Program-made: the position numbers and the translations under genes
In this document: piece by piece, positions 4,357 through 63,546 of the stretch
Position numbering within the stretch: the stretch's first letter is position 1
Layout: each line of letters starts with the position of its first letter
NCBI RefSeq assembly: GCF_020520425.1
Contig: NC_079488.1
Location: 91,617,285-91,681,284 of the forward strand
Direction of reading: 5' to 3'
Length of the DNA stretch: 64,000 nucleotides
Source: Spinacia oleracea
Lineage: Eukaryota > Streptophyta > Magnoliopsida > Caryophyllales > Amaranthaceae
Notes under the pieces: model-generated
Told to the model about the DNA's origin: nothing
What the model saw: the letters and a program-made list of their open reading frames with translations, nothing else
Databases searched by the model: none

Positions 4357-5450
4357 CTCCTTCACACAAAAAAAAGAAAAATATTAAGAAAAGAAAACAA
4401 CAGCTAAATAGTTAACTAATTGAATTATCTAAACAATTATATAATTCATGGAAAAAGATAACTATTTGATGGAATACATTAACTAATTGTTGTATAAAGT
4501 TAACTAATTAAAGGAAAAGGTTAACTATTCGATGAAATAACTTAACTAATTGATGGAATGATGAAACTATTGGAAAAATTCATTAAAAATAAGTTCACTT
4601 ATAGAGAAAAATAGTTAACTAATTGATGAAATAAGATAACTAATTGCTGAAATAGGTTAACTAATTCATAAAACAAGTAACACTTGGTTAACTACTTAAT
4701 GGAAAAAGTTGACTAATTGCTGTAAAAACTTAACTAATTTAAGCAAAAGGTTAACTATTGTGAGATAGGTTAACTAATTGAATAAAAAGGTTTACTAATT
4801 CATAAAAAAAGTTAACTAATTGATGGTACAAGTTAACTAATTGAATAAAAAGGTTTACTAATTCATAAAAAGGTTAACTAATTGATGGTACAGGTTAACT
4901 AATTGAATAAAAAGGTTTACTAATTCATAAAAAAGGTTAACTAATTGCAAAATAGGAACTCCTTCACAAAAAAAAAAAGATAACTAATTGATGAAATACA
5001 TTAACTAATTGCTGTATAACGCTAACTAATTAAAGGAAAGGGTTAACTATTTGATGAAATAACTTAACTAATTGATGGAATGATGAAAGATTGGAAAAAT
5101 TCATTAAAAAATAAGTTAACTAATTGATGAAATAAGATAACTAATTGCTGAAATAGGTTAACTAATTCATAAAACAAGTAACACTTGGTTAACTAATTAA
5201 TGGAAAAAGTTGACTAATTGCTGTAAAAGGTTAACTAATTTAAGCAAAAGGTTAACTATTGTAATAGGTTAACTAATTGAATAAAAAGGTTTACTAATTC
5301 ATAAAAAAGGTTAACTAATTGATGGTACAAGTTAACTAATTGAATAAAAAGGTTTACTAATTCATAAAAAGGTTAACTAATTGATGGTACAGGTTAACTA
5401 ATTGAATAAAAAGGTTTACTAAATCATAACAAAAGTTAACTAATTGACAA
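4357..5450. repeat. ~510-bp segmental duplication inside an intron
   Basis: A block running from ACTCCTTCACA through a GGAATGATGAAA landmark to AACACTTGG is present twice in tandem, offset by about 500-522 bp (landmarks at 4551/5073 and 4681/5182). The first copy begins at the 5' edge of the exon starting at 4359, so the exon border was copied with the intron. This is duplication above the level of the 21-bp unit. Confidence 0.8.
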
Positions 5451-6964
5451 AATAGGTTAACTATTAAAAAGATTCATTAAATATGAACAAAAATAAATAT
5501 GAACATTATCATGACTTACATCATCGCAGGTAGCTTGAATTTCAGCATCTGTTTGAGCACTTTCCGGAATTTGAAACTCAATAATCCTGCTTCGATCAGC
5601 TTGGGAATTACCCGGTGCACCTTCCGAAGCTTTAGCAGAAGCAGCAGGAGCACCAGAAGCAGCACGAGCAGCAGAAGCAGAAGGAGCAGCAGAAGCAGAA
5701 GGAGCAGCAGAAGCTTCAGGAGCAGCGGAAGCTTCAGGAACCTCGAGTTTGATAGGGTTAAGACCCCCTAACAAATCAGCAAAAGTCTTAGACACGGGAT
5801 AGCTGGTTATATCAACCAAAGCTACCCCAAAACCCATCTTCTCTTCGGAAACCAGACGTTCAGTCACTTGTTCATCATTCCAATGTTGAACAATTGGGAT
5901 TTCCTTAGGGGGGACTACACCCCGAAATAACGATCTTTGGAGATAAATTATCTCCAAAAATAGAACACAGTCACCAACCTTGTCATTTTTGACACTCGCT
6001 CTCCACCTCTCGACAGTAAACCCAAGCTGATTTAACACGTATTTACACCAATTTTGTTTCACAATCTGTGAAACATCCTCAACAGCCTTCAAAACCTTGA
6101 TGTCTAACAACCGGTTAGACGTAGGAGCCAAAAATACACCTATAAAAACAATAAGATAATTACAGAAATCAATAAGATAATATGTTAACTAATTCATAAA
6201 AATAGTTCACTAATTAATGTAAAAAGTTAACTAAATGATGAAGAAAGTTAACTAAATGTAAAATAGGTTAACTGATTGATGAAACCAGTAACTAATGGAT
6301 AAAGAAGGTAAACTAATTATTAAAATGAACTAATTAATGAAAAAAGAAGAATAATTAATAAAAAAAGGTAAACTAATTAATGTAAATAGTGAACTATATA
6401 CTTGCTGTTAAAGGTAAATAACTTGAGCATGATTAATTTAGAAATTTTTACCTAAAACATATACCACAAAGGCACGTTTAAAATCATCTCCACATTCATC
6501 TATTTTCAAAAAAGATTCCAACTCCGTCAAGGTGGGTGCCTGAACAGTTGGTTTCTTATGGAACTTCTCATTCCATTTTTGAATCATTTCATGGTTGGCA
6601 TCTCCTTCAACCCGCTTTCTTGGCGTCTCTTGAACATCAAAATCCTTGTTCCATGGCAAGCCAAAGACGTCATAGACATCATAATCATATAACTGAACAT
6701 TTTGTGTTTCTCCAAACTGGAGCATATGACCAACACAATTAAAATGTTGAAGCAGCCATGGAACAAGGCGTGTGTTGACTTCATGAAGTCGAACACTCAA
6801 CAAACCACCAAAACCTATCTCTTTAATGGCTTTCACTTTGTTTTCATTCTTCTTTATAGAATTAAGAAGATTAATCAACGCCTCTGGTCTACAATTTAGT
6901 TTGTAACCCCTACACAAAACAAAAGAATTTAATTAATGAAAATATTTAACTAATTGCTTAAGAA

Positions 6965-7840
6965 GTTAACTAATTGAAGAAAAAGGTTAACTATTTAATG
7001 AAATAGGTTAACTAACTGCAAAAACTTCACTATTCATGCAATAGGTTAACTAATTGATAAAATAGGTTAACTAATTAATGGAAAAAGTTAACTAATTGCA
7101 GTCAAAAGTTAACTAATTATTGAGTTAACTAATTGCAGTCAAAAGTTAACTAATTAATGTAAAAGGTTAACTAATTAGTGAAAAAGTTAACTAATTAGTG
7201 GAAAGATTCTTTTTAAAAAAAGGTTAACTAATTACTGAAAAATATTTAACTAATTGTGTTTAAAGGTTAACTAATTATTTTAATTACATAACTACTTCAT
7301 ATAGGTAAAATAATTTGTTTCAAAGCAAAAGTAATTAATTTAAAAATAAATAACAAATAGTCATACCTATCCAACTAATTAAACAGTGATAAATAACAGT
7401 TACAAAGATAGGTTAACTAATTGAAGAAAAAGGTTAACTATTTAATGAAATAGGTTAACTAACTGAAAAAAACTTCACTAATCATGCAATAGGTTAACTA
7501 ATTGATGAAATAGGTTAACTAATTAATGGAAAAAGTTAACTATTTGCAGTCAAAAGTAAACTAATTATTGAGTTAACTAATTGCAGTCAAAAGTTAACTA
7601 ATTAATGGAAAAGGTTAACTAATTAGTGGAAAAAGTTAACTAATTAGTGGAAAGATTCTTTTTAAAAAAGGTTAACTAGTTACTGAAAAATATTTAACTA
7701 ATTGCAGTCAAAAGTTAACTAAATTATGCAAAAAGTTCACTAAATGTAAAATAAGTTATGATAATTGCAAAATCCATTTTTAAATAGTCATACCTATCCA
7801 ACTAATTTAACAGTGATAAATAACAGTTACAAAGATAGGA
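6965..7840. repeat. ~430-445-bp duplication carrying a splice-donor edge
   Basis: Landmarks at 6978 and 7423 (a GAAGAAAAAGG run) and at 7361 and 7787 (CATACCTATCCAAC) show a tandem duplication of about 430-445 bp. The CCTATCCAAC segment also forms the true donor of the first Ulp1-like exon near 7848. Three copies of the same exon-end plus GT donor sequence are therefore present. Confidence 0.75.
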
Positions 7841-8449
7841 GTTATACCTATCCAACTCTACAACTTCCCCGCCATCTTCCGTATATTCTACTTTAACTTT
7901 CGACTTCTTTGGCCCCCTTCCAATTTTCCTCTCATCTGCACTCAGCTTTGGACTAGCTGGAATATCTTCAGTCGGCCTTGAACTGCCTTCAACATCTTGA
8001 CTCGACTTCCCAGCATCGTGATAATCAGATGCTTTGTTTGCATTTTTTGACCTCATTATGTGAACTGAAACTATAAATGAATGTAGTTCAATATATTGCA
8101 ATGCGCAAATAAAAAGAATGTGTAATGAACATAAGCAGTATAAATAGCAATAAAAACAAAACAATTTCATTGTGTAACTAATTGCTTTGAATGTTTCACT
8201 AATAGGTTAAAATAGTTAACTAATTGGATTATGCAATTAACTAATTGGTCAAAAAAGTGAACTAATTGCTCAAGAAAGTTTGAAATTAAATAAATTAACT
8301 AATTCGTTTAATACTTGATTTATGAATGTCAGAATATGACTAATTGCTTTGAAAGAATAACTAATTGGTAAAAATAATTAACTAATTGATTAAAAAACTA
8401 ATTATTTATCAGCGAACTTTTAATTGAACAAATTGAACAAAAACACCAA

Positions 8450-32492: not shown

Positions 32493-32497
32493 ACCGC
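32493..32497. repeat. 5-bp target duplication of the LTR retrotransposon (left)
   Basis: ACCGC precedes the 5' LTR and is repeated at 44076-44080 after the 3' LTR. Confidence 0.92.
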
Positions 32498-32924
32498 TGT
32501 TTGGGCTCCCAATTGATTCTCAATTGGGCCACTAAGTCCAAAGCCCAATGGCTCTAAACAAATAACATCAAAACCTACCAATGGCTAGTCAGCTATCCAT
32601 CAAGGCCCAAGGCCCAATAGCAATAAATGACCTATGGGCATTTATTATGCAAACACTATAAATAGGCCGCCAAGGCTCACACCTCAAGGTACGTCCAATT
32701 TATCGCCTTAAGACTACTCTTCTAGAGAACTTCTCTCTAGAATCCGAGCATCATTCTTACTTAGGCATCGGAGGGGCTTTCCTCGGAAACACCCCCGAGG
32801 CTAGTGACTTTGCTCTTGTGCAGGTGAATTCGGCCTCTACTCATTCAAGCAAGCAAGATCTTCAACACATACAAAAGGGCCTTCATTCGAAGCCCATTGT
32901 TTCCATCTTTACAACACCGGAATA
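32498..32924 (+). repeat. 5' LTR (427 bp)
   Basis: Starts TGTTTGGGCTCC and ends CCGGAATA, where the 3' LTR ends CCGGAACA. A TATAAATA box lies at 32657-32664. It differs from the 3' LTR at three sites, all transitions. Confidence 0.95.
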
Positions 32925-32927
32925 ATT

Positions 32928-32945
32928 TGGCGCCGTCTGTGGGGA
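32928..32945 (+). other. Primer-binding site
   Basis: TGGCGCCGT starts 4 bp after the LTR and matches the 3' end complement expected for tRNA-Asp over its first nine bases. The match weakens afterwards. This primer is common in Tat/Athila-type elements. Confidence 0.6.
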
Positions 32946-32994
32946 AGAACACTTCAAAGCCTTTTGAAAGACATTAACCACCTCTTTCTGCAAA

Positions 32995-34613
32995 ATGGTT
33001 AATGATGTTATCAACAACGATGATGACGATATGATAGTGCGATCAGATTCGGAATCTGACGAAGAGGAGCACCCTCAATCGATGGCGAGGTCACAGCCAA
33101 GCAGAGCTACGACCGCCACAAACGCAGGACCTCCGATTCCAACTAGGGAAGAGCTCACTGCGGCCATGACCATCATGCAAAACTTCCTCTTCAATGAGAA
33201 GCAGCAAGGATTGGCAAAAGACCGCAGAGAGGAGAGGAGGACCAGGCGAAGGCTGAACGAGCAGCCCAGTGTAGAAGTGTCCAGACCCGAAAGAGAGCTC
33301 CTCCCCTTGACAGGAACACACCTGACGTCAAGATGGATGGAAAGCACGTGGGACACCCAAAAAAGGGCACAACAACAACCAGATTGGTTTGCAAAACCAT
33401 CGCCTACTCCAACAGCTCTCCAAAGCGAATCGACTACTCGTAACACCCGGATCCGAAGCTCGGTGCTCAGCAGGTTGAGGCCATCGGTCCACTCAAGGTT
33501 AAGACCCTCGATCCATACGAGACTCAGGGTAGGCGAATCAAGCAGATCTGGCGAACGACCCGAGGTCAGTAGCCGAGAAAGAAGAAGAGACAGGAGGCAT
33601 GATCGAACCCCTAGCCCCCATCGTACGCCCGAACGTTCTAACCACAGAACCTCGGCGAACGAGGGCATCAGGGCTAGACTCGGGAAAAGAATCATGACTC
33701 CCACGTCATCCCCTTTCTCGGACGAGCTGATCAGGGAAGAGATACCAAAGGTAAGACTGCCAGCACACCTGACGTATAGCGGAATCACGGATCCAAGGGA
33801 TCATGTCATCTCCTACGAGCAGCAAATGTTCTTGAGTCCCTACTCCGAAGCATGTTGGTGTAAATATTTCCCAACCACGCTAACCGGAGTGGCGGGAGAA
33901 TGGTTTTGATCGCTGCCGAAAGGATCGATCAAAAGCTGGAAGAAGCTGAAAAAGAGATTCTGCACACAGTTCGTGAGCAACAATCGCCCCGAGCGAACCA
34001 CGGCAGAACTGACCTCGATCCAACAAGAAAAAGACGAAAGTCTAAGAGAGTTCATGGCCAGATTCATGAAGGAATCAACAAACGTACCAAACTTACAACC
34101 AGATGTGGCCATCTTCGCCTTGAAACACGCGCTCCAGGAAGGGAAATTCCGTGATAAGCTCTCGATGAAAACCCCTCCAAAATAGCCGACGTGCTCCAAA
34201 TGGCTGATGCGTTCATCAGAACCGAAGAGTTCAACAAAGCCGCTGCAAGATTGAAAGGATCGTCGGATCCGAGAGAAATAAAGAATACCCAGAGCAAGCC
34301 CGAGGGCGGCTCAAGGAAAGGGAAGGAGAAAGTAGGAGCTAGAGAGATGAGCCCGAAGAAAGACGGGAGAAGGGGTGAACTTCAACCCAGATACACTAAC
34401 TACACTCCACTGACTCTGCCCCGAAAAGAAATCTTTAGCCTCAACAGAAATGATGAAAAGTGGAAACTACCTGGGAAGCTCAAGTCCAACCCAGCTCGGA
34501 GAAACAAGAACAAATGGTGCGAGTTTCATGATGACTTCGGTCACCACACCGAAGAATGCAACTCGCTGAAAGACAACATTGAGGACCTCGTTCGCCGAGG
34601 CTACCTGAAATAG
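32995..34613 (+). pseudogene. Retrotransposon gag, interrupted
   Basis: Structural protein region. The first part (33000-33700) is Arg/Ser-rich. The core retrotransposon gag domain follows from about 33770, and a CCHC-like zinc knuckle (WCEFH, then GHHTEEC) lies near 34520. An in-frame TGA at 33907-33909 falls in the gag core, a frame change occurs near 34180, and TAG at 34611-34613 separates gag from pol. Beyond each break the frame continues with recognisable family sequence, so these are recent lesions. The start at 32995 is the first ATG after the primer-binding site. Confidence 0.88.
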
Positions 34614-34616
34614 TAC

Positions 34617-37600
34617 TTGTTAGACCGAAGGGAGGAAAAAGAAAAGGCCGCAAGTGGCAAACAACACGAGCAACCCCAGAAAAGGGTCTACGAAGCAACA
34701 GGGCACAAGAAGAATGACATCCTAGTGGTGTTCGGGGGACAGAAGTCTGGCCAAGCCAGCAAGAAACACCTGAGAGCTCTCACCCATAGAGTCAACTTCA
34801 GCACAGTGGGAGACAACCAACCACACCCCCCGAACATGACCTTCACTGCCGATGATTGCTTCGGAGTCCAATACAAACATGACGATCCTCTAGTCATTTC
34901 CATGGACCTCAATAACCACAACGTACACCGAGTGTTGGTCGACGGAGGAAGTGCCGTCAATATCATCTTCAGAAACTGCTTCGAGCAACTGATCCTCGAA
35001 GAGTCAGAGGAAGCATTGACGAAAGTCAGTTACCCCCTGATCGGATTCAACGGATCCGCAGCTATCCCTCGAGGAAAGATCACCTTGCCAGTCACAGTGG
35101 GCGAAGGCCAAGCAGCGAAAACCCTTCGGGACCAATTTTTGGTGATGGACTGCGATTCCGTATACAACGTAATCATGGGAAGAACCATGATCCACAAGAT
35201 GCAAGCAGTCCCCTCCACATACCATCAGCTGATGATATACGTCTCGGATGCAGGATTCGCCGAACGAATTAGAGGTGATCAAGAGGTCGCGAGAAGAACC
35301 TGCCACACCGCCGTCCGAAAGCCCAAATTAGGAGACAGTTCGGAGGCGGAGAAAGATGCTCCAGGAGAGGAGAGTGAGGCAAAAAGGAGGAAAGCAGGCA
35401 TGAGCAGCTTATCTCCCGCAGAGGTCGATGCCCGCCCCGAAACCCTGTCTCCTGAACCAGATCAGGAAATAGAGGATATCTTCCTCGAAGAAGGTTCAGA
35501 CAGGAGCGTCCGAATAGGCAAGGGCCTAAGCTCGGGGCTCCGAATCGATTTGATCCAACTACTCAGGGATCACAAAGACATTTTTGCATGGTCGGCAGCA
35601 GATATGCCAGGGATAAATCCGAAGCTGATTTGTCACAAGCTGGACGTCAACGCCGAAGCTCGGCCAATCAAACAAAAGAAGAGGAATTTCTCCTCGGAGA
35701 AAAACAGAGCCATCGCCGAAGAGGTAAAAAAGTTGCAAGAGGCCGGATTCATCGAGCCATGCATGTACCCAAAATGGTTGGCCAACGTGGTGATGGTCAA
35801 GAAAGCGAACGGCTCCTGGCGAATGTGCGTGGATTTCACAGATCTGAACCGAGCCTGCCCCAAAGACTGCTATCCCCTGCCAAGGATAGATCAATTGGTT
35901 GACTCCACCAGCGGCCATGCACTGCTCAGCTTCATGGATGCCTTTTCAGGCTACCACCAAGTGTTCATGCACCCCGACGACAGGGCAAAGACAACATTCA
36001 TCACAAGCGCAGGAGTGTTCAACTACAAAATGATGCCTTTCGACTTGAAAAATGCCGGAGCCACCTACCAGAGGCTAGTTGATCACGTCTTCGCCGACCA
36101 GAAAGGGAGGAATGTCGAGGTCTATGTGGATGACTCCATCGTAAAAAGCATCAAGGAGGAAGACCATGTCAAAGACTTGGCAGAGACCTTCGGAAATCTG
36201 AGGAAATACAGCATGAAGCTGAACCCAAAAAAATGTGTCTTCGGGGTGAAGTCAGGGAAGTTCCTCGGATTCATGGTGAGCGAAAGAGGAATCGATGCGA
36301 ACCCAGACAAAGTCCAAGCGGCATTGGATTTACCCGAGCCGAAGACCAAGAGAGATGTGCAGAGGCTAACCGGCAGGTTAGCCGCACTAACAAGGTTCAT
36401 ATCAAAAGCCTCGGACAAGGGAGCCCCCTTCTTCAAAGCACTGAAACCAAAGAACCTCCCCGGGGGAGAAGCAGAACCAGTCAAGAAAAAGGGGGTCCCG
36501 AGGAAGGTGGATCCCGAACTGATATGGGAACAGGAGCAAAAAGAAGCTTTTCAGCAACTCAGAGCCCACCTAGCTCAACTGCCGACACTGGCCAGACCAA
36601 AGGAGGGGGAAACCCTGTACCTATATGTCGCAGTCAGCCCTGGAACCGTCAGCGCAGTACTTCTTCGGGAAGAAGAGAAGAAGCAACAGCCAATCTACTT
36701 CACCAGCCGAACACTCACAGGGGCCGAAACTCGGTACCCGCTCATCGAGAAAGTCGCATATGCAGTAGTGGTAGCTGCACGAAAACTGAGGCCATACTTC
36801 GACTCCCACCAGATCACAGTACTAACTGACCAACCGCTCGAGAAAGTACTCGACAAAATAGAGAGGTCAGGAAGATTGGCTGCCTGGGCCTTCGAACTAT
36901 CAGAGTTCGGCATCAAATATCAGCCGAGGACCGCAATCAAAGCACAGGCGTTGGCAGACTTCTTGGCCGAGTGCTCATACCAGGAAATGCTGGATGATAC
37001 GAAAAGCACTTGGGAGGTCTTCACTGACGGATCTTCCACAATAAACGGCTCAGGAGCAGGAGTTGTACTAATCCCCCCGACGGGGAAAAGCATAGAGTGT
37101 GCATTGAAGTTCGGCTTCAAAGCAACTAACAACGAGGCCGAATATGAGGCCGCAATCGCAGGGATAGAGCTTTGCTTATCCCTGGAGGCCGAGCATGTTT
37201 GCCTCAAAACTGATTCCCATCTTGTAGCCAACCAGATCCGAGGGGAGTATGAGGCCAAGTGGCCCAGCATGACAGCTTACTTAGCAAAAATTAAATCCTT
37301 AACGTCAAAGTTAAGATCCTTTGAAGTCATTCTCATCCCCTGAGGACAAAACACGCAAGCAGACGCACTGTCAAAACTCGCAAGCTCAACACTCATCGAC
37401 CTAAACAGGTCGGTCCACGTGGAAGTTCACCAAGAGAGAAGCATTGACTTGCTACCCACCACAGTATGCAGTTTACGTACCGAACCCAGCTGGATGGACG
37501 CAGTAGTTGCATACAAAGAAAGGGGAGAACTTCCCGAAGATAAGCTGCAGGCGAGAAAACTGAAAAGATTCAACAAGTGGTTCATCATCAGCGCCGAAGG

Positions 37601-38747
37601 AGAGCTCATGAGGAAATCATTCTCCGCTCCGCTGCTAAAATGTGTGGGTCCAACGGACGCTGACTACATCCTAAGGGAAATCCACCTCGGGATATGCGGA
37701 AACCACATCGGAGGCAGGACATTGGCACATAAAGCCCTTCGGGCTGGGTACTGGTGGCCCACTATGGTTTCCGAGGCAAAGCAGATGGCAAGGAAATGCG
37801 AGAAATGCCAAAAGTTCGCACCAGCCATCCATCAACCAGCTCAAACCCTACAATCAACACTGTATCCCTTACCATTCGCACAGTGGGGGTTAGACATCAT
37901 TGGTCCCTTCCCCTCAGCGACGAACCAGAAGAAGTGGTTGATTGTAGGAGTCGACTATTTTAGCAAATGGATCGAAGCCGAAGCTGTCTCCTCCATCACC
38001 GAACCTCAGGTCCGCAAGTTCATATGGCAGAACATCATCACGAGGTTCGGCATACCAAGACTGATGGTCTTCGACCACGGGAAACAGTTCGACAACACCC
38101 CGTTGCAAAAGTGGTGCAAACAGTTCGGCATACACCTAGCTTACTCGGCAGTCTGCCACCCACAAAGCAACGGGCAAGCCGAAGCTGCTAACAAACTCAT
38201 CCTCAATGCACTCAAGAAAAGAGTCGAGGATGACAAAAACAAGTGGTTAGAAGAGCTACCCGGAACGCTATGGTCCCTTCGGACCACTGAGAAAGAAGCT
38301 ACCGGGCAAACACCGTTCCACCTTGTATATGGATCCGAAGCTGTAATCCCTGTGGAAATCGGAACAGAAAGCCTGAGGATCCAGGCATACAACAGGTATG
38401 ATGGGCTCCAAGGAGAAAGCAACAACCAACTTCTGTCTGAAGCTCTCGATCTACTGGACGAAGCTCGGAACGATGCAAGGACACTCAACGCAGCCTATTT
38501 GCAGAGGGTCAACAAGCATTATAACCGAAGAGTCAACGCCAGACCCCTAAAAGTCGGTGATCTAGTGCTCAGAAACGCCGCCTCGGTTCAGAAAGGACGG
38601 ATCCATGGCAAACTCTCAGCCACTTGGGAAGGACCATACATCATCCATTCCGAAAAAAGGCCAGGCACGTTTATGCTGAAACAGTTAGATGGAACAATTT
38701 TGAAGAACCATTGGAATACCGATGTTCTCAAGAAATATTTTGTATGA
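34617..38747 (+). pseudogene. Retrotransposon pol: protease, RT, RNase H, second RNase H, integrase
   Basis: One frame in phase with the end of gag, broken only by TGA at 37341-37343. In order: aspartic protease (VLVDGGSAVNII, ~34930); reverse transcriptase (FMDAFSGYHQ at ~35935, YVDDSIV at ~36122); RNase H (~36540-36960); a second, archaeal-type RNase H (VFTDGSSTINGSG at ~37020, TDSHLVANQ at ~37210), where the stop falls at its end; integrase with an HHCC finger (CEKCQKF at ~37798) and aspartates in LDIIGPF and VFDHGKQF plus glutamate in GQAEAANK. The C-terminal part ends at 38747. Catalytic residues look intact on both sides of the stop. Confidence 0.93.
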
Positions 38748-39130
38748 TCTCTGTCTGTAAACCAAGTAAGTTGTTTAATGAGAAGAGGAAAGCCATTGGC
38801 ACCATGTGTTTCATTAAACTTATCTCTATATTTATTGTCCCCTTATATATATATGCAGCCTCGGATCTGATCAATCCGAGACTAAAAACAGGTTGACTTT
38901 GCCCATTCCTTGATAAAATGCAAGAAATGACCAAATCATACACTTCAGGGAATCGTCCAGAATCCTCGGATTCGCGATACCCAGATAAAACTTGTTCGCA
39001 ACAAACAGTCGCTCGAATCAAGTTATAAAACTTCGGCTCAGATCCACGGATCGCCGAAGTCATAACTAAGAGGCAGACTAGCGATCTCTTGCCCAGGTTT
39101 CCGAACCACAAGAGATCGGAAGAACAATCC
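38748..39130. other. Retrotransposon 3' non-coding region
   Basis: Downstream of the integrase stop, with no sense gene. It contains repeated CGGAT/TCCGAG phrases leading into the 46-bp tandem array. Confidence 0.4.
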
Positions 39131-39420
39131 AGACCTCTGAGCAGATCGACGGATTTGAAGAGTCTGGAAATTAAAGAGTCTCTTAGCAGATCTACGGATT
39201 TGAAGAACTCGCAAAATTAAGGAGTCTCTTAGCAGATCTACGGATTTGAAGAACTCGCAAAATTAAAGAGTCTCTTAGCAGATCTACGGATTTGAAGAAC
39301 TCGCAAAGTTAAAGAGTCTCTTAGCAGATCTGCGGATTGGAAGAACTCGCAAATTAAAAAGTCTCTTAACAGATCTACGGATTTGAAGAGCTCGCAAGAT
39401 CAAAGGGTTTTTAGCAAGTC
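39130..39420. repeat. 46-bp tandem repeat in the element's 3' region
   Basis: The unit AGTCTCTTAGCAGATCTACG plus GGATTTGAAGAACTCGCAAA and a short linker repeats about six times (starts at 39177, 39223, 39269 and onward), nearly identical in the middle and degenerate at both edges. Tandem repeats downstream of pol are common in Tat elements. Confidence 0.88.
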
Positions 39421-39773
39421 TACAGAAAGAAGAGCTCGAAAAATCTACGGATTCAAAGACTTAAAATTGCGAAAGTACAAAATTGAAAAGAAGCAGCCAA
39501 GTAACAAACATTCATTTTTCATTCAATATTTGGGGGAAGTACAAATACATCAAACAAACTCGGTACATACCCGAGGACCCTCAAAAATTGAAAACAAAAT
39601 GAAACAGTTAAAATCGGCAGCCATCAACAGACAATACCGGCCTACCGAAGTACTAAGAAAGCAAAAAGAAACAGTACAACGCAGCGCCGAGGCAAAAGGG
39701 GGAAAGGCAAGCACACATTCGGAAGTCCTCAACTGGAACCGACCGACTCTGAAGAAGACGACTGCCCGAATCC

Positions 39774-40598
39774 CTAACTCTTGGGAGTCTCAGGAGCAGC
39801 CCCCAGGGGAGCATCCTTCGAAGAACCCCCAGCAGTAGTGTCACCTTCGGAAGTCGCCTTCTGGGCCCGAGCCTCTGCAAGAGCAGCTTGGCGTTCAGCT
39901 TCAGCTTCGTCTCGATCGGCCTGGCACTCCACCAAGTGATCCTGGGCCCTCATCCAGAGAGGAACTTTCTCATTCCAAGGTAAATGAGGCATATGCTTCG
40001 CAAACATGCGCCGAGCACCCAGGATGCCATTCCAGTATTGCTCTCTACACTGATCAGCAGTGTAGAGGTCAACTCGCTCTTGCTCCAACTTCCGAATGGT
40101 CGCATCCTTCTCTCGGATCTTCAGCTGGAGAACGGGCACCTTGTCAGCTTGATTCTGAATAATCTCCCGATGCTTGACAAACTGCTGAAGCCTCGCCTCC
40201 GCTTCCTGGCTCTGCTTAATGGCCGCCTCAAATTTAGACGTCATCTCCTTGAGAAGACTGTCTTTTTCTTCAAGTTCGCTCGCAAACTTGGCGGCCATTT
40301 CTTTCCTCTCCTTGTCGAAGGAAGCTATCTTTTCAGCATCCTCTTCGACTTGGAAAGTGAGCTTCCCAACTTCGGCCCCGATCTGTTCAGCCGATTCCCT
40401 AGCCTCACGACTGTACTGAAGATATAGTTGCTTGACCTCCACCAGCTCGGAGAAGAGCTGCCCAGCCTTCTGGTCCAAAATAGGGATATCACGAGCATAA
40501 GCCTCCTGATATCTCCTCAGTTGTCTCTCCTCAACCGAGCTACACTCGGAAGCGAACGAGGACCAGAAAACAGCCTGTGAAGAGAAGGAAGGATGAGG

Positions 40599-40635
<37 letters not shown>

Positions 40636-43220
40636 ATAAAACAAAAACACAACTCAAAAGAGAAAATCCAACACTTACCTCATTCAGATAGTACTGGGCC
40701 ATCATATCCGGGTTCCTCTCTTTAGCTCCAGGAACCCTCCACTGCGGGTTGGCCCGAAGAAGATTCTCCCGAGCAGCTTCGGGACCCACCAAAGATCCCA
40801 CATGAGCCATGGGGTTCTCCCCCAAAACCGGAGCCCTGGCATAGCGAGCCATCGCCTCCCTTACCTCCTCGGGGATCCGTTTCAGCGGAACATCCGAGCA
40901 AGGGTCAGCGTGGATCAATCTATCCAAGGCCGAGGTCGAAGTAGAGCCCAAGGTCGAATGGCGCCTCTTCCTCGTCAAACCCTGTTCCTTCTGCTCCTCC
41001 TCAGCAGAAGGAACCTCCTTCTCAGCCTCGGGAACCTCAATGTGCGCTTCGGTGAGGTCCACCATCTCCTTATCTGGACTTTTCTCTCTTTCGAGAGAAA
41101 CGTCAGCAGATTCCTCCTTCTGCTCGACCACGATAGGGGCATCCGAGCTAGGAACAAGGTCGGCTTCAATCGCCTCCATCACCTTGGTGATATCCTGGAT
41201 CTCGATCCCTAAAGCAGTAGACGGCTTCAGCGGAGAGGGGATGGTATCTTCCTCAGCCAACGGTTGATCCACGGGCGGCGGCTCCGCAACCACCACACTC
41301 TTCAACTTCTGCCCTGGCAAGGGCATGAAGTGAAGGAGATTCTTGAGAGGAGGCATGTCTTCCGAAACCGTTTCCTACAAAACAGGCGTTCAAAGATCAG
41401 CTTCAAGGAAAAAGAAGAAGAAGGGAAAAACGGACGACAAAAAACTCCAAGTCAGAGCAAATACCTTCTCCGAGGACTGAGAAGCCTTCGCTTTCTTCGG
41501 ATGCGCGGAAGGCCTCAAAAGAGTGCTACCCTTCCTTTTTCTTTGATCCTAAAAAGGGGAGACCAAGGGTCAATAAATGTAAAAGAAGACAAAGGAAGAA
41601 ATAAAGAAAAAAAGCGTGAAGTACCCGGTTCCTAGATAAAGAGATATCTATCCGAGCCGGGGATGAAACCAAAGGAACGGCACGTGGCACAGCGTCAGTC
41701 CCAGGACCCTAAAAAGATGGTCCAGGACCAAGACGTTAGCCGACGGCCAACCAGAAAGAAAGACAAACAAAAAACTTCGGGATATAGAAACACTCACCGG
41801 ATCTGAGGTTGTCCTCAAATCAGGAAGCACGACCTTCACTGGAACAGCTTCGGGAGAGGAGGCAGAATCCCACGGATCAGCTCGAACTTCGGATATCCGA
41901 GCGACACCCGAAGGAGACAGCACGTAATCCTTCAAGCGAGGATTACGAGGATTCTCTTTCCCGAACTTGTAATCAGGAGCCGAGTCGTGAATAGTCTTCA
42001 GATCCAAAGAGATGCCCAAAACCACAGGATCAATGCAGCTAAAGCCGTACTCTGCAGAAACAAAGCACAAAACAAGTCAATAAAACGAGACAAAAAGGAG
42101 GAGGACAAACTCACTGAAGCACGGTCCCAGCCGAAAGACACCTACCCCTGTCAAAAATCCTGCTGAGACCGGCAACAGCAAGAATGTCCTCCCGCAAGAT
42201 ATAGTTGAGGTTCGGGAGCCAGCTAGACGGCAGTTTGTAGTTGTCCTCCCGAGCCAAAAACCACTGGAGGAGATCCACGTAGTGGTGATGGTTCCGATCC
42301 GGAGCAGCCACGCTTCTCATATCAGGATCAGGAGTCACAAACCACTTCGGAGGGCGATAAAAATGGGGATGCTTCGGATCTGTCGGCACACGAACGAGCA
42401 ACCACTCCGTCTTCCAATTATGGTCAGAGCTGAGGTAAGGGTAGGCCGTAATGTAGTTCGGCTCCCCCTTCCTTCGAGAATTTTTGTTGATGATGGTCCA
42501 CCAACCATACCCATCCCCCTTGGAAGCGTGATTGAAAGACAGATCGTGGAGATCCCGAAACACGGCGACAGAACAGGGAAAGTTAACAAAATCGCACACC
42601 CATCTAAATCCGATGATGTGCCTCATAGATTTGGGTGTAAGTTGGGCCAAACTGATGTTGTACGACACCAGGAGCTCGGAAATGAATGGATCCAAGGGAA
42701 AGCGGAGACCGTTCTCCAAGTGATGAGTATACACAGAGATGAACCCCCTCGGCGGATGAGTCACCCAAGGACGCTCCTGATCGGGAAGCTCGCACCAGTA
42801 CCCCAAGGCGTGCTGGATTCCGTATAGCTCCTCGGCCCTCCGATGGTAGTTCCCCAGCTTCGCCTCCACCAACCAGTCACCACTGACCGATTTCTCCAAC
42901 GGACCATCGATCTTAGTGGTCTCATGCAAGATCGGGGCATACTTGCCCTGCGGATCAGCTTCAGTCCAATGAACTGGAAACTCAGGGTAAGGACGGCGCA
43001 CACCCGAAGAACCAGCTTTCTTACCAGAAGTTGCGCGTTCAGACACGCTAGACCCGCCAACAACATCATCTTTGGAAGCATCCCAACCAGTCGAACGCCT
43101 CTCCACCGGCCTCTCCGAAGGCCGACCCCTCGAAGTTTTCTGTAACCTTCCCGAAGGCACATTCTCCCTCTCACTAGAGGAGCCAACGACGAACTTGCTT
43201 TTGCCCCTATTCTTTGCCAT
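39774..43220 (-). CDS. Antisense gene of the Tat retrotransposon, six exons, intact
   Basis: Function is unknown. Exons on the minus strand: 43220-42146, 42051-41798, 41708-41625, 41548-41465, 41374-40679 and 40574-39774. All junctions are GT-AG, and together they give one frame of 997 codons plus stop. The N-terminus is basic and Ser/Arg-rich. Residues ~110-330 match the plant putative gypsy-type transposase domain (GFISVYTHHLENGLRFPLDPF; IGFRWVCDFVNF). The middle is acidic, with a nuclear-localisation-like RKRRH. The last exon is a long coiled coil (EKDSLLKEM, KIREKDATIRKLEQE). A TATA box lies upstream and a poly-T tract precedes the last acceptor. Such antisense ORFs are known in Tat elements. 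Unlike gag-pol, no stop or shift is present. Confidence 0.82.
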
Positions 43221-43474
43221 GGTCGCGAATTCTCGGTCTAGGGTTTAGATTGAGGAGTAGAAGGAAGAACGAAGAAGTAAGGAGAATTCAGAAACAAATT
43301 ACCTTTTTCCGAAGCGGAATTCGCCGATAAAACGAACAACACAAGTTCCCGAAGTCTAAAGCTGGCCGAATTTCGTAGATCTGAAGAAACTCAAAAACCG
43401 CGATCGCCGGGAAAAGAGAGGAAGTTTGTTTAAAAGAGAGAGAAAGTAAAGTTTGAAGGAAGTTTAGCGCCCGG

Positions 43475-43482
43475 TATTTATA
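43475..43482 (-). promoter_or_regulatory. TATA box of the antisense gene
   Basis: The minus strand reads CTATAAATACC about 255 bp before the antisense start codon, followed by a GA-rich leader. It suggests a promoter of its own inside the retrotransposon. Confidence 0.5.
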
Positions 43483-43631
43483 GAAAAGGGAAACGCATCA
43501 ACTTCCTTTCGACGACACAATACAAATCCCAACACTTGTCATCAATGCAAATCATCCCTTTTCAAAAAAAAAAGAGGGAACTTTTGGACTTCTGACAGCT
43601 GGAAACCCACCCATTTAATTCTAAATGGACC

Positions 43632-43648
43632 GGGTCTGGGGGGCATGT
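43632..43648 (+). other. Polypurine tract
   Basis: GGGTCTGGGGGGCATGT lies directly before the 3' LTR, in the position where plus-strand DNA synthesis is primed. Confidence 0.6.
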
Positions 43649-44075
43649 TGTTTGGGCTCCCAATTGATTCTCAATTGGGCCACTAAGTCCAAAGCCCAAT
43701 GGCTCTAAACAAATAGCATCAAAACCTACCAATGGCTAGTCAGCCATCCATCAAGGCCCAAGGCCCAATAGCAATAAATGACCTATGGGCATTTATTATG
43801 CAAACACTATAAATAGGCCGCCAAGGCTCACACCTCAAGGTACGTCCAATTTATCGCCTTAAGACTACTCTTCTAGAGAACTTCTCTCTAGAATCCGAGC
43901 ATCATTCTTACTTAGGCATCGGAGGGGCTTTCCTCGGAAACACCCCCGAGGCTAGTGACTTTGCTCTTGTGCAGGTGAATTCGGCCTCTACTCATTCAAG
44001 CAAGCAAGATCTTCAACACATACAAAAGGGCCTTCATTCGAAGCCCATTGTTTCCATCTTTACAACACCGGAACA
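43649..44075 (+). repeat. 3' LTR (427 bp)
   Basis: Near-identical to 32498-32924 and ends in CA followed by the ACCGC duplication (44076-44080). Confidence 0.95.
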
Positions 44076-44080
44076 ACCGC

Positions 44081-50691: not shown

Positions 50692-51150
50692 TTATATTTA
50701 CTACTTGTGTGATCAAAATTTTAAACTTTTGACCATAATTTGCGGTTAACATAGTAATAGAAAAGCATTATCTTATTACACTCTCCGTTTCTTTTAAATG
50801 CATCACTTGCTTTTAAGGTTTTTTCGTTAATCTCTATTCAAATATTTTATTGTCTCTCTATTTCACGACCTTACTTAAATAATTAAAAAAATCAACCTCT
50901 TTCACATAAGCTAACTATCATATTCCACATTATTTTTTTCTTTAATAAATACTCACTCCATCCTTAAAAGATTGCCTCAAATATTTTTGTTTACTTTAAA
51001 TATTAGGTATACTCAAAAGCAAATGACCGAGTCACCGAGTAGGTATATTTGTCTTAAACTTAGATTAAATAATTGTATGCAAGGGGATATGTGAGGACCA
51101 CAAACCAAATAAAGTATGAGGCAAATAAATATGGACATCCATTTATGATA

Positions 51151-52293
51151 GGAAAATTTGTAATTATTAATCTAACATTTGCCCGATTTTCTTTAATTAA
51201 GCCTACCTATGCGATATTTCTAAATAATCCCACCTTTATGACCCAACTACTATTATTAAGCCTAACAAGTTACTAACCTGCTATAGGCGGTATTCACCCT
51301 TATGTGGCATATAACAATTATAATTTTTTTAATTTTTTTCCCCTTATTTTCTTTAATTGCTATTTTAATTTTCGTCTCTCTCAGCTCTCCTCTGCGATTT
51401 TCTGCTTCATCTCTGCACTCCTCTCCATTATTTCTCTTCTACCTCTTCTCCACCATTGTCGATCCCTCATACGGTCATACCTCTCCATTCGAAGTTCATC
51501 AAAAATAATCAGCAATTGTTATGGCTGGGTAAAGCAATTGCCTGTTGGATCTGGATCTTCTTCAAATTCAAGGTTTTTTTTCTTTCTAAATTTTCAACAA
51601 GACCACAATAACCAACATCCCACAACATAAAAAAAACTATATTATTGCAACAGCTCGGGTTTTTACGAAATGGCCATCAAGGAAGCCCAAAATTCAAAAA
51701 TTACCAAAAAAGGAACAAAAACGCTAAGGTTCGTAAGTTCACCTTCAATTGTACGATTTTGGTGACGAAATTTGAATGCGCGTGGATGAAGTCACCTATT
51801 TCCACAAGAAAATCGCTGATGATGTCATGAATCAGTACAATTGTGGTTGAAGCAGCAGTAATGGAGGAGAGAGGAATTGAAACACGGTACAGAGAAGAGA
51901 AGGGTTAAGGGTTTTTTGAAAAAAATGAAATCCTTGTTTAGGTGGCAAGTGATGATGACGTGTCTATTTTAGGAGGGAAACCAACTTTAGGTTGTCAACG
52001 TTTTTAACGTTGACTTTGTAGCAGCTAACCGGTCATCTAGGCTTAATAATAGTAGTTGGGTCATAAATGTTGGATTATTTAGAAATATCGCATAGGTAAA
52101 CTTAATTAAAGAAAATCGGGCAAAGGTTGGATTAATAATTATAAATTTTCCTTGACTTTGTAGCAGGTAACCGGTCATCCAGGCTTAATAATAGTAGTTG
52201 GGTCATAAAGGTTGGATTATTTAGAAATATCGCATAGGTAGGCTTAATTAAAGAAAACCGGGCAAAGGTTGGATTAATAATTACAAATTTTCC
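51151..52293. mobile_element. Non-autonomous MULE, 1,143 bp, duplicated right arm
   Basis: Starts GGAAAATTTGTAATTATTAA and ends in its complement, with an exact 9-bp duplication TTTATGATA (51142-51150 and 52294-52302). The right arm is present twice in tandem (about 52010-52152 and 52153-52293). The interior (51300-52000) has an unrecognised CT-rich stretch with short frames. The sub-terminal ACCTGCTATAGGCGGT resembles the motif in the full-length MULE at 9.6-14.95 kb. Confidence 0.9.
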
Positions 52294-52936
52294 TTTATGA
52301 TATATGGGGTAATCTTGTAGGGATGAAGAGAGTAAATTATATAGTTGTCCACTTACACCATTTAATAATAATTTTGCACGGGTTTTCTAAAACTATGTGC
52401 TCGTGAAAATGAAAAGGAGGAGGGAGTAGATATCATTGGATTAGTTTCAATATAAAATTTTCAAATATAATTTTTTCTATAATTTTTGCTAATACATTAT
52501 TAAATTCTTAATGATTAAAGTAGTGCACTGAAGACCGCGTTAAATGCAAAAGTAATGAACTTTATGGAACATAAGGAGTAGTATAGTAGGTATTTAATAA
52601 CAAGATTGACACGTGTCCCTATTTTAAAACATCTTTTCAGTTTATTTTTCTTTCAATTTATTGCTTCTTCCTTCTCCAATTTCAAGTAATAAGTTACCGT
52701 TTCTTATTTTTCTACGTATTATTTACAATTTTTTTAAACTTTTCAAATAATATACCTACCTATATTACTATCTTCATTATTTTCTTAGTTAAACTATATT
52801 AGTGAAATACTTGGTGTGAAAGAAGTACATATACACGGAGTACTCTTTTAGTCCTATATGATGAATTGAAAACTAAAATTACGTAAAATTTAATATTCCA
52901 TATAACAAAAAAAACGTACATGACAATAAATTCTAA

Positions 52937-53050: not shown

Positions 53051-53637
53051 ACTAGGGTTGTTATTTTGTTAAGGCTAACCCTACGGCTACATTCACTCAC
53101 TCTCTCTCTTGTCATTTTCATCTCTTCTTATCTCCCAATTAGATATTCCTAGAAAACAAATAAGAACCATTTAATTTCATTATTTTCGTTTAAAACCAAA
53201 AACAAAAGCATTTACCCTAAAGTACTCCAAAAGAGAATCAAACCTCCTCAATTTTAACCTTACTTGCATCACGTGAATTCCTCCAAAACCCAGTTTTTAT
53301 TTTCTAATGATTCATATATAGACAAAAAGAGTTAATTACACATTAATTTAATTGAATGCGATATGTATTGTCCTTGTTGCTCATTTACCTAAAAAGAAAA
53401 AGAAATTAAGAACCACCAGTTATTTAATCATATAAATGGTCCCCCTTAATCACTTAGAATTCTCTCCCGTTTCTTTCTTCACCACTACTCCGTATATATT
53501 ACTTACAGCTTTGTGTTGTTCAACTAGTCCTTCGTATAAGGGACTATTTGTTCACATAGTTCCAAAGCTAAAGCTGGGGAGAAAGATAGAATCATGCCGT
53601 ATTCTTTTCTTGCAGCAAGTAAGTTCTCTCAACTCTC

Positions 53638-53733
<96 letters not shown>
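53638..53733. repeat. (TTA)32 microsatellite
   Basis: Thirty-two uninterrupted TTA units (96 bp), about 750 bp upstream of the ABCC gene. The poly-isoleucine frames over it are artefacts. Confidence 0.98.
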
Positions 53734-54479
53734 GCAAGTATGCTAGTTTGCTGTTTTAAATTGTTAATGAACTATATATTGCTTTCTTTGATTACGTTAC
53801 GGCAAGGGTCGTCCCCCGCCAGAAGGCGCTGTTGTATCGTAAACATGGTTGTAGAATCGTTGCTCCGATTACTGCTTTTGGTTTCGTGATGTTGGGTCTT
53901 TAAAGTTTAATGTGCTGATTAATTTAACAAGGTAAAAACAGAAAAATGAATGGGATCATCTATACAAAATAAGGTTAAAAGTAGCTTGTTTTGATTTTAG
54001 CATAAACATCCTACATTGTTTGAAGTTGGAAGTTCCCTCATTCTTGACTTGAATCAAGCTATCTTTAGGTCTCGAAGCTGCACTGCTCGTAGTAGGAAGT
54101 GGTTGCACATAACCATTTCCATCCCGGACAAAGAAAACTATACTTGATAGTGACAACTGACAAGGGGGTTGCACATAATCATGATTCATGAGACATGTAG
54201 CATGTATGTTTTATACCCTGAAATGAAACAGAAGATCCATGTGTATAAATCCTTGAGTAGCAGTAAATGAGAACATAGGGAAAGAGCTTAATTATATATA
54301 TAGGGCTTCCTCAGTTTCAAAATAACACTCCCTCCATTCACATATACTTTGTATGACTGTTAAGGTTGTGCAGACATTATAGAAAGTCAATAGTACAAAG
54401 TTACTCACTCGCAAGCATTTAGGCCGGTTTTTAAGTTATATTTTTCTAGCATAATCATCAAATTGCTATTGTTTTTTTT
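53734..54479. other. Upstream region of the ABCC gene
   Basis: TATATATATAGGG at about 54293 is a possible TATA element, and a Stowaway-like half-end (CTCCCTCCATTC) sits at 54328. No other gene is supported. Confidence 0.4.
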
Positions 54480-57400
54480 ATGGCAGATCTAAAGCTATTG
54501 AATCTAACAGCATGGGAACAGCTGAAAACCCCCTGCTTGTGGGAAGAGATCAGCATATTTTTGCTGCTGGGGTTTTATGGGACCCTACTGTTATATTTCA
54601 TCAGAAAAATGATTTGTGCAGTACACATGCACACTACAAAAGCAGCAGAAAAGGATGCAGAAATGTACCTTGAAAATGCAAGACTAAGCCTATGCTCGAA
54701 AGCCAGCGTTATTCTTTCCATTTTGCTCTTGGGTGTGCATTCAACTTCTTTAATCTTGCTGTTAAAAGGAAGCAGCAAGACTCAGTGCAACCATTCTCTT
54801 CCAACTTTCTCAGCTGAAATTTTGCAGGTTATATCATGGATAATCACGATAATTGTACTAAGTAGGATTTTAACAAAAAATTACCTCATTTTCCCCGGAA
54901 TTCTAAGATTCTGGTGGGTTTGCAGCTTCTTGATCTTAGCTTGTCACATTGCCATTGATTCTCATTTCATAATGGCAAACCATGGTAACTTTAGAATACA
55001 AGACTATGCAGATGTCCTCGGCCTTTTTGCATCAGTCAGCCTGTTGTTAATTTCCATTCAAGGAAAGATGAGAATAGTGCAAGACGGTGCAACAAAGAAC
55101 TTGACTGAACCACTTCTGAATGGAGAAAGTGAGAAATTTTCAAGGGGGAAAAGCGAATCACTTTACAGCAAAGCAACCTTTCTTGACCTTGTTACCTTCT
55201 CATGGCTCAACCCATTGTTTGTTATCGGGAAAAAGAAGCCACTTGAGCAGGATGAGATCCCAGATGTTGATGTGGAAGACTCTGCTGCTTTTCTCTCTTA
55301 TTGCTTCGATGAAAACCTAAAACGAGTCAAGGAGGAAGAAGGAACCACCAGTAACCCATCTGTCTACAAGGCAATATTCTATTTAGCATGGAAGAAAGCA
55401 GCAGTAAATGCCATATTTGCAGTAATAAGTGCATTTGCATCATATGTTGGTCCATATCTAATCAACGATTTTGTGAATTTCCTCAGCGACAAGCAACACC
55501 GCAGCCTAAAAACAGGCTACCTCCTTGCTCTTGGATTTCTAGGGGCCAAAATGGTGGAGACAATAGCACAGAGGCAATGGATCTTTGGGGCTCGCCAACT
55601 AGGGCTCCGCCTCAGAGCTGCTTTGATATCTCAGATATATAGAAAGGGCTTAGTCTTGTCATGTCAAGCGAGGCAGAGTCACACCAGTGGAGAGATAATG
55701 AACTACATGAGTGTAGATGTTCAAAGAATCTCAGATTTTGTATGGTATGTAAATACCGTTTGGATGTTACCAGTACAAATATCGTTAGCAATCTTTGTTC
55801 TGCATACAAATCTAGGTTTGGGAGCATTTGCAGGATTAGCTGCTACTTTAGTAGTTATGTCTTGCAATATACCTCTAACAAGAACGCAGAAAAAATACCA
55901 ATCCATGATCATGAATGCCAAAGATGCTCGGATGAAAGCCACCTCAGAAGTCCTGCGTAACATGAAGACAATCAAACTTCAAGCATGGGACAATCAGTTT
56001 CTAAATAAGCTAGAAAGCTTGAGAAATATAGAGTCTTCTTGGATATGGAAATCATTGAGATTAGGGGCAATTGGAGCCTTCATTTTCTGGGGTTCACCTA
56101 CCTTCATTTCAATAGTGACTTTTGGAGCTTGTCTTTTAATGAAAATTCCACTCACAGCAGGCAGCGTTTTATCTGCATTAGCAACCTTCCGTATGTTGCA
56201 GGATCCCATATTTAGTCTGCCTGACTTACTTAATGTTGTAGCACAAGCAAAAGTATCCGCTGATAGGGTTTCTTATTACCTCCAAGAAGAAGAAATTCAG
56301 CAAGATGCTGTCGAGTTTGTTTCAAAAGATGAAACACCCTATGCCATAGACATACAAGGTGGGGAATTCAGCTGGGATCCTAATTTAGGAACTCCAACCC
56401 TCGATGGAATAAACTTGAAGGTTAAAAGGGGAATGAAGGTAGCAATATGTGGAACAGTAGGATCAGGAAAATCTAGTTTGCTCTCTGGTGTAATTGGAGA
56501 AATCCCTAAGATCTCCGGGACTGTAAAGATTAGCGGTTCTAAGGCTTATGTTCCTCAAACCCCATGGATACTGACAGGAAATATCAAAGAGAACATACTC
56601 TTTGGGAACCATTATGATGCCACTAAGTATGATACAACGGTTAAAGCGTGTGCTTTATTAAAAGATTTTGAGCTTTTCCCACAGGGCGACTTAACAGAAA
56701 TCGGAGAAAGAGGTATTAATATGAGCGGGGGTCAGAAACAAAGGATACAAATTGCTCGTGCAGTATACCAGGATGCAGATATATATTTGCTTGATGACCC
56801 TTTTAGTGCAGTTGATGCACATACAGGAACACAACTATTTCAGGTAAGCACTTGTGAGACTAGAATGTCAAATACTGCCAACCCTTTGATTCTTACATTT
56901 TTATTACTCATCTCACTTACAATGTACTGAATTTTAATAAACAGGAATGTCTGATGGGGGTTCTAAGAGACAAGACAATCTTTTATGTGACCCACCAAGT
57001 CGAATTTCTACCAGCAGCAGACCTCATTCTGGTATGATATAACAGCAATTGTTGTATGCACTTTCTCAGCTACATATATTGATTCACGAGGGAACTTATA
57101 TACAGGTGATGAAAGAAGGACGAATCGCAGAAGCTGGAAGTTTTAAGGAACTCTTGAAACAGAATATCGGGTTTGAAGTTTTGGTTGGAGCTCATAGTCA
57201 AGCTTTAGAATCTGTTCTTACAATTGAAGGTACTTCTGGTAGAACTTCTGAACATGCTACACCACATGATGTTGATTCAAGTGCAGAACAAATTCAACCA
57301 AGGGATGAAGAAGAGGATAACCTTTCTCCGGAAATGAAAGAGAATCAAGGGAGGTTGATACAGGATGAAGAGAGAGAGAAAGGAAGTATAGGGAAGGAAG

Positions 57401-61585: not shown

Positions 61586-62191
61586 TACATTCCTACCCCA
61601 TCTATAGTACTACAATCAAAATAAAAATTAGCGGAACCAATAATTAATCAAACATGAAGTGAAGAACTAATAACAATTCAGATTGCAAAACTGGGATAAT
61701 GATTTGGATAATAACCCTTCAATTGGTTGCTTTATTTGAACATAATTCAAGTAATTTTTTCAAAAGTTCCAGTCATATGAACGAAATCATGAAACAAATG
61801 TCTTCTACCTTGAAATTTGGTAATTTACCTTGAAATTTGGTCTGATGATTGAGGAAAACCGGCGGAATTTTGAGGAGATTTGGGGTTGTGATAAATTTGA
61901 AGGAAGATGAACTGTTGTTAGTGTTGTGAAGTTGTCAATTTTCCAATTCAAAGAAGTGATAAGGTCATACCGTTTGAGTAGCGGGTAGCGGTCAAATAGT
62001 AGAGGGTAGAGGTTAGCTGTCAAAGTAGCGGTTGATAATATAAGTGTTTGGCAAAAGTAGCGGTTGAAATTACAAAAGAAATATATAATATATTTAGTTA
62101 AAAATTAAATAAATTCAATCCATAAATGTGATTCTTTTGGGGTAACGATTCTTAACTATGAAACAAATGTATGGAAGAAATTCCTTACATA
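61586..62191. other. No gene; TAGCGG-rich patch at 61975-62070
   Basis: Several TAGCGG(G/T)T phrases recall the repeat at 45.6 kb. The remainder is plain AT-rich sequence. Confidence 0.35.
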
Positions 62192-62200
62192 TAGAAATAA

Positions 62201-63470
62201 GGAAAATTTGGTAATATTAATCCAACCTTTGACCGATTTTCTTTAATTAAGCCTACATATGAGATATTATTTAATAATCCGAACTTTTATACCTATATTC
62301 TTTTGTTGGTCCCGACAGGTAACACACCTGCTATAGAAGGTTACCTGTACACGTGTCACTTTCTAATTTATCCAAAAAATCCTTTTTTTTCCTTATTATT
62401 CCATTGCTCTTTTCTTCAACTGTCCGCGGGAAGCCCTCCTTCCTCGTGCTGCCTAGCTAGCCAGCTCCCACGTAATCAATGCAACCATCTTCCCCATTTC
62501 TTTTCTCTCTCCTACGGGATCCATCAATCTCCCCTTCTCATAGTTGGTTATTCTATTATCATATTCCTCTCTCCTGTAATCCCGTAGAACACCATTGTTT
62601 TTAGCAACCTGAGATTTCTTTGATGTATCTCTAATTCATCATTGATCTATCTCAAGTATAATATCTCTTAAATGTATCTCTAATTGACTCCCAACGTATT
62701 CAATATTTTTTTTTCTCAATTCATTTAAATCCAAAAATCAATCTACTCAAATTAATCCCAATGTGTACATGGTACTGTTCTATGGATTTCGAATAGACGA
62801 ACATCTCTCCATTTCCTTCTCGTTCTCTCTCCTTCTATGTGCGGTCAGCGACCAACAACCACCCACGGGCCACGGCCAAAACCACCATTGATGACCACCG
62901 GTCTTCCGTGAGCCAGACGTTGTTGAATTCAATCCACAGCGGGACATTGTGGATGGTATGACAGTAATAGTTGTAGCCAAATTGGTGAGAGAACTAACAG
63001 CAAAAATTTCAAAGTAATAGCATTGTAAAAATAATAATATAAATGAAGGTTCTTGAGGAGATCAACAATGGTGTGGAGGGAGGAAAGAGGAGATTTTAGA
63101 ATTAATTAGAATTCATTGTTTTTAATTATCAAAATCATAATTTATTTCAGTTAATTTTATTTTTAATGCGTATTAATTAAGTAGTAGGAGTAGATTGGAT
63201 TAGTTTTGAAAGTTGATGACTGAGAAATTTAGAAGCCATTAACGGCTTGTAGCAGAGGTGAGAAAGGGAAATTAAAAAACAGAAAAAAATAAAAAGAAAA
63301 CATTAATGTAGGGAAGGTGGAGGAACTTTGACAATTTTATCCGGTTACCGGTCAATGTGACCCATCAAAAGAAAATAGGTATAAAAGTTCGGATTATTAA
63401 ATAATATCTCATATGTAGGCTTAATTAAAGAAAATCGGTCAAAGGTTGGATTAATATTAACAAATTTTCC
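62201..63470. mobile_element. Non-autonomous MULE, 1,270 bp
   Basis: Starts GGAAAATTTGGTAATATTAA and ends in its complement, with 9-bp flanks TAGAAATAA (62192-62200) and TAAAAATAA (63471-63479), one mismatch. The inverted repeats are about 140 bp and closely related to those of the 51.15-kb element. The interior has CT-rich and short open stretches that I do not recognise, so captured host sequence is possible but unproven. Confidence 0.87.
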
Positions 63471-63546
63471 TAAAAATAAAGATTACATTGTTCCTTTAAT
63501 AAATAAATCATGTCAAATCGTTCTTGATATAAGTAGTTTGCAATAA

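Follow-up and report, generated by a model that had tools for sequence, protein, structure and literature searches.

The retrotransposon at positions 32498-44075 of the window (the whole 64,000-nt stretch of Spinacia oleracea DNA analysed here) carries, antisense to its gag-pol, a six-exon reading frame which is apparently one old, spliced gene kept by selection, as judged from genomic comparisons. We consider it probable that this is an accessory gene of a Retand-type Ty3/gypsy family, and that it serves the element and not the host.

The element is complete. Its two LTRs of 427 bp differ at 3 positions when aligned (0.7%), and a 5-bp target-site duplication, ACCGC, lies on either flank. The LTR termini are not the same, since TA closes the 5′ LTR (32923-32924) and CA closes the 3′ LTR. 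Pfam searches done with the separate pieces of gag-pol returned Retrotrans_gag, RVT_1, RT_RNaseH, RVT_3, Integrase_H2C2 and rve. On the plus strand the domains follow one another as RVT_1, RT_RNaseH, RVT_3/RNase_H and then Integrase_H2C2 with rve, which is the gypsy order with the integrase after RNase H, and it includes the additional RNase H-like domain that marks Tat-type elements. No Pfam match to a chromodomain was detected in the polyprotein of the element up to E = 1. The region between POL and the 3′ LTR (38748-43648) measures 4,901 bp, within the 2.9-6.6 kb range used for Retand membership, and contains an antisense ORF with PF04195 (E = 4.1e-10), which is likewise a Retand criterion. 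Domain order, length of this region and antisense ORF together fit a Retand-type Ty3/gypsy element (non-chromovirus).

The preliminary description of this DNA had proposed six minus-strand exons with GT-AG borders and an uninterrupted frame of 997 codons. This structure is now on firmer ground than when it was put forward: the joined exons give 997 codons plus a stop, the five introns are all GT-AG, and the longest spliced ORF found in a blind search of 39600-43400 has the same length as the model. The TATA box and the lesions of the sense gag-pol (three stops and a frameshift) were also found as reported; all features are located in the table below. The introns are 76-104 nt long and their T content is 45-66%, versus 24% in the exons. 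The weak polyadenylation-like hexamers recur 249-257 nt beyond the stop codon in all six loci sampled. As for the controls, 40 order-2 Markov shuffles never exceeded 508 codons for the longest spliced ORF (mean 225), and the sense strand of 39600-43400 gave 190 codons. Twelve other tiles of the window, scanned on both strands (24 scans), reached at best 817 codons (plus strand, from 53201) and then 368; the 817-codon control frame indicates that long frames do occur elsewhere, where genes may lie. An ORF arising by chance is rejected by the shuffle controls together with the retention of introns across copies and the dN/dS values described below.

Features of the element and of its antisense gene (positions in the window; strand; basis or remark)
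Feature	Position	Strand	Basis or remark
5′ LTR	32498..32924	+	aligned to 3′ LTR; ACCGC at 32493-32497
gag-pol, broken	32968..38747	+	stops 33907, 34611, 37341; frame change within 34158-34185
Tandem array, 46-bp unit, 6.8 copies	39135..39444		adjoins 3′ end of antisense gene
AATGAA/AATTAA polyadenylation-like hexamers (weak)	39511..39523	-	about 250 nt beyond stop codon
Exon 6 with stop codon; heptad-patterned stretch	39774..40574	-	gene model
Intron 5, 104 nt, GT-AG, long minus-strand T tract	40575..40678	-	borders kept in 29/29 other copies
Exon 5; basic cluster TRKRRHS, aa 633-639	40679..41374	-	gene model
Intron 4, 90 nt, GT-AG	41375..41464	-	borders kept in 29/29 other copies
Exon 4; bipartite basic cluster, aa 473-493	41465..41548	-	gene model
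Intron 3, 76 nt, GT-AG	41549..41624	-	borders kept in 29/29 other copies
Exon 3	41625..41708	-	gene model
Intron 2, 89 nt, GT-AG	41709..41797	-	borders kept in 29/29 other copies
Exon 2	41798..42051	-	gene model
Intron 1, 94 nt, phase 1, GT-AG	42052..42145	-	position and phase recur in three other families
Exon 1 with ATG; PF04195 (Transposase_28/TRP28), aa 163-225	42146..43220	-	gene model; Pfam
TATA box TATAAATA of putative antisense promoter	43475..43482	-	255-262 nt from ATG
3′ LTR	43649..44075	+	aligned to 5′ LTR; ACCGC at 44076-44080

Other parts of the window have features of their own. The 817-codon frame (53201-57000, plus strand, spliced or open) is perhaps a host gene. Positions 12-8280 contain long runs of a degenerate 21-bp AT-rich tandem repeat around GTTAACTAATT; both orientations occur, and higher-order duplication is seen locally. 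Paired inverted repeats about 110 bp long, with 0.8-1.1 kb between the partners, were found at 51149-52306 and 62188-63472; the two places are 71-81% alike and are possibly two related mobile elements.

The predicted protein had been described as a transposase domain fused to a long coiled coil, and this holds in part. The PF04195 match is clear, but the word "transposase" is a Pfam label only. The C-terminal coiled coil in exon 6 is a prediction with moderate support, consisting of a proline-free run of 115 residues from aa 763 whose heptad spacing was equalled by 6 of 200 shuffles. Besides the basic clusters of exons 4 and 5, the motif Q[RK]KRKG is found in 30/30 copies. Pfam gave zero matches for exons 2 and 5 and 16 for exon 6, all of these under the cut-off; NCBIfam, searched with exon 6 only, gave 3 matches far under the cut-off. 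No PDB entry matched exon 1 by sequence, nor by fold using a low-confidence structure model (mean pLDDT 48), which is too weak to inform function. Nothing useful came from scanning viral contigs with exon 1 or from tblastn of exon 1 against phage records, and a viral scan with an alignment as query yielded 39 pattern matches and no relatives.

To compare the gene among copies, the 3.4-kb region was used as query against the 894-Mb assembly (966 first-look candidates, 40 scored, at least 41 matches). The 30 best-scoring loci, one of them the window copy, were read; they lie on six contigs of 115-189 Mb and are biased toward window-like copies. All five GT-AG intron borders are kept in the 29 other copies. 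In 29 of the 30 loci the distance from the TATA box to the ATG downstream of it is 261-263 nt; it is 364 nt in a truncated copy (L025), which was left out of the lesion and site-class counts. In some copies intron 5 reads through, exons 5 and 6 both reporting an open frame of about 524-530 aa; its retention would be harmless there.

Selection on the multi-exon gene, which the preliminary description had suggested, is supported by these copies. Comparison of the 16 most diverged full-length copies with the window copy gives a dN/dS of 0.16-0.19 at a dS of 0.10-0.23, although all these comparisons share the branch of the window copy, and the introns of the same 16 copies diverge by 0.05-0.20, drifting roughly as synonymous sites do. 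In the closest copies dN/dS is higher, 0.63 (L002) and 0.65 (L003). These data also bear on the idea that the antisense transcript, and not the protein, is what matters, by pairing with the sense RNA and tuning silencing. This was raised as a possibility in the part of PMC7264820 available to us and would suit the conserved promoter-like TATA box; on the other hand, a role of the transcript by itself would not account for selection that acts on codons while introns drift, and we regard it as very improbable, even if transcript and protein roles could coexist.

The level at which selection acts can be approached by separating differences according to how widely they are shared, in columns with at most two codon types and codons differing at a single base. 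The differences common to at least two copies comprise 46 nonsynonymous and 120 synonymous changes and no stops (per-site ratio 0.11), while the private ones comprise 123 nonsynonymous and 87 synonymous changes and 7 stops (per-site ratio 0.42). This pattern fits selection during the replication of the element and relaxation after insertion; since the ratio of private differences is 0.42 and not 1, they are not pure decay. Gag-pol appears to be under a constraint like that of the antisense gene, with dN/dS against the window copy of 0.15 and 0.09 in the two copies read (L006 and L012), versus 0.19 and 0.20 for the antisense gene in the same copies, both of which had been picked because that gene is intact. 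Taken from sequence comparison, purifying selection on the antisense gene is thus placed at the level of the mobile family, and the proposal of a host-relevant product is not borne out by the contrast of shared and private differences.

The preliminary description had further held that the antisense frame outlasts gag-pol. The copies argue against this. The antisense gene is intact, free of stops and frameshifts and with its start codon kept, in only 10 of the 28 other full-length copies, and the remaining 18 carry 14 stops and 7 frameshifts, some of which, if of a single base, could be assembly errors. Among the matches listed, those of the window copy excluded, 6 stops occur in 113 matches for exon 1 (0.049 per kb), 10 in 149 for exon 5 (0.096), 14 in 143 for exon 6 (0.123), 11 in 49 for a 909-aa pol piece (0.082) and 2 in 90 for the integrase (0.016). 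Pooled, the antisense exons have 30 stops in 339 kb (0.088 per kb) versus 13 in 260 kb (0.050) for pol and integrase, so that the antisense value is the higher one (p = 0.09); these protein-search matches are ranked by score, which favours intact copies, and frameshifts are uncounted. In many sister copies gag-pol is open throughout: the frame that holds the match is open over 2026-2028 aa for 43 of the 91 integrase matches listed, and where exon 1 and integrase matches stand at the right distance the frame is 2027 or 2028 aa long in 15 of 26 copies, the window copy excluded. The integrase piece itself (467 aa) is 99-100% identical in all 91 matches listed, and the RT piece mostly 97-98%, which looks like either unusually strong constraint on the integrase or its recent sharing among members of the family.

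Eight of the 29 copies could be paired by position with a pol match. In two of them the antisense gene is intact and pol is stopped (L006 and L023), in four the antisense gene is broken and the 909-aa pol piece is stop-free (L005, L009, L015 and L025, although L009 has a stop in its integrase match), and in two both are broken (L003 and L024). Gag-pol was read in two copies chosen for their intact antisense gene, and both turned out to be broken, L006 (locus L061) with two stops and a frameshift and L012 (locus L062) with two stops. These two copies and the window copy, all three broken in gag-pol while their antisense gene is intact, are what could suggest that the host has adopted the antisense gene of the window copy and preserves it while gag-pol decays. 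However, an intact antisense gene was the reason for choosing L006 and L012, lesions in it are present in 18 of the 28 other full-length copies, stops are not rarer in the antisense exons than in pol and integrase, and four copies display the opposite pattern. Moreover, the LTRs of the window copy differ so little that there has been little time for decay, and when its 4 lesions are placed at random over both genes all 4 fall in gag-pol 19% of the time. We infer that its frame was kept through youth and chance and not through host need. Adoption by the host is highly improbable, and a host-domesticated gene was rejected on the ground that the frame at this locus is not kept beyond what the mobile family keeps.

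Older relatives of the gene were sought with PF04195 (2698 first-look candidates; the best 150 scored, all over the cut-off), and 30 diverged loci were read, of which 16 were left out for alignments falling short of aa 345. In the 14 loci where the alignment spans the end of exon 1, the GT of intron 1 is always at the same position and phase as in the window, one base more than seven codons after the start of residue 352 (phase 1). The loci fall into three families; when one representative per family is compared in the exon 1 protein, identity to the window is 28, 25 and 24%, and among the three representatives it is 20-36%. Given that loci within a family are related, 14/14 counts as three agreements. 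At least one diverged locus beyond the reach of the alignment (L042) has lost this GT. For exon 2, 17 loci with the donor motif were taken and one (L053) was dropped; if unspliced, the frame past the donor stays open for 4-8 codons in 15 of the 16, and for 32 in L058, before a stop closes it. Downstream of the donor, pyrimidine-rich acceptors open a second exon, which is similar among the members of each family and, judged by eye, also across two of the three families. This comparison, which covers intron 1 only, suggests that its position is older than the family of the window copy.

We propose that antisense transcription starts from a promoter between exon 1 and the 3′ LTR, and that splicing would yield an mRNA for a protein of about 1000 residues, with TRP28 at the N-terminus, basic clusters, and the coiled coil at the C-terminus. 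The basic clusters could send the protein to the nucleus and the coiled coil could pair it; there it would serve the element, most likely as a nucleic-acid-binding regulator. To judge from the strand, copying would leave the introns in place every time, since genomic RNA represents the sense strand, which is devoid of these splice sites.

In a narrower form of this explanation, the product would be a sequence-specific anti-silencing factor binding the array or the promoter of its own element, like VANC of the Arabidopsis VANDAL elements. According to the accessible text of PMC10398659, VANCs, which belong to plant mobile elements, are anti-silencing proteins with sequence specificity; DNA binding is predicted for TRP28 in the portion of PMC11963269 available to us, and the 46-bp array lies just past the gene, at the same place and with 3-9 units, in 30/30 loci. 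Yet that portion gives arrays for only 32 Retand representatives, and the likeness to VANC is one of description; we hold this form to be unlikely. Extended to Retand as a whole, one ancestral multi-exon antisense gene would encode a paired, sequence-specific nuclear anti-silencing factor recognising its own array or promoter. This broader reading, which we offer as a tentative possibility, would explain the separate promoter, the adjoining array and the gag-pol-like constraint, and the gene would have been overlooked because surveys call ORFs without introns.

Returning to the accessory gene of the element, several known systems resemble it. Antisense ORFs with the TRP28 domain (PF04195) are characteristic of Retand elements (Vicient 2025, PMC11963269) and are present in 97% of the clusters surveyed according to the accessible text, which does not support the rarity implied in the preliminary description. 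They agree with the gene described here in place (pol to 3′ LTR), orientation, domain and tandem array. The row Spinacia oleracea 1 of that survey (LTR 425, internal region 10,719, POL-3′LTR 4,850, one array) is close to our element (427, 10,724, 4,901, one array), an agreement of sizes alone. The survey considered single ORFs of at least 600 bp called by ORF Finder, whereas in our model several ORFs are joined as exons into a single gene; in the part of its text available to us, "intron" and "splicing" of the antisense gene do not appear. Maize Grande gene23 has its own promoter and a nuclear product (Gomez-Orte 2013, as told in PMC7264820). By this second-hand description it is alike in being antisense and in a long 3′ internal region, and differs in belonging to a maize element. 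ORF2 of PvRetro13 from common bean (PMC7264820, in the part available) is also antisense, and its coiled-coil-like (SMC) product recalls exon 6 by description, but exon 6 has no Pfam match near the threshold. HBZ of HTLV-1, named in the accessible text of PMC11963269, is one of the retroviral antisense genes and is similar only in its manner of working: it lies close to the 3′ LTR and its product is nuclear. No homology is claimed.

The antisense ORFs being already known, the newer part is the multi-exon structure and its conservation. The literature searched describes no multi-exon antisense gene or intron conservation for Retand; most subscription papers were outside this search, and novelty is not proven. 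PMC7264820, in its available part, calls for looking for antisense and spliced transcripts. For a retroelement, it is worthy of note that families sharing about 25% identity keep an intron at one codon: an intron on the sense strand would tend to be lost on copying, and the antisense orientation is what allows it to stay. Antisense ORFs are widespread in Retand elements. If the ORFs reported for each element belong together as exons of a single gene, domain searches so far have dealt with fragments, and the full protein becomes the target for tests.
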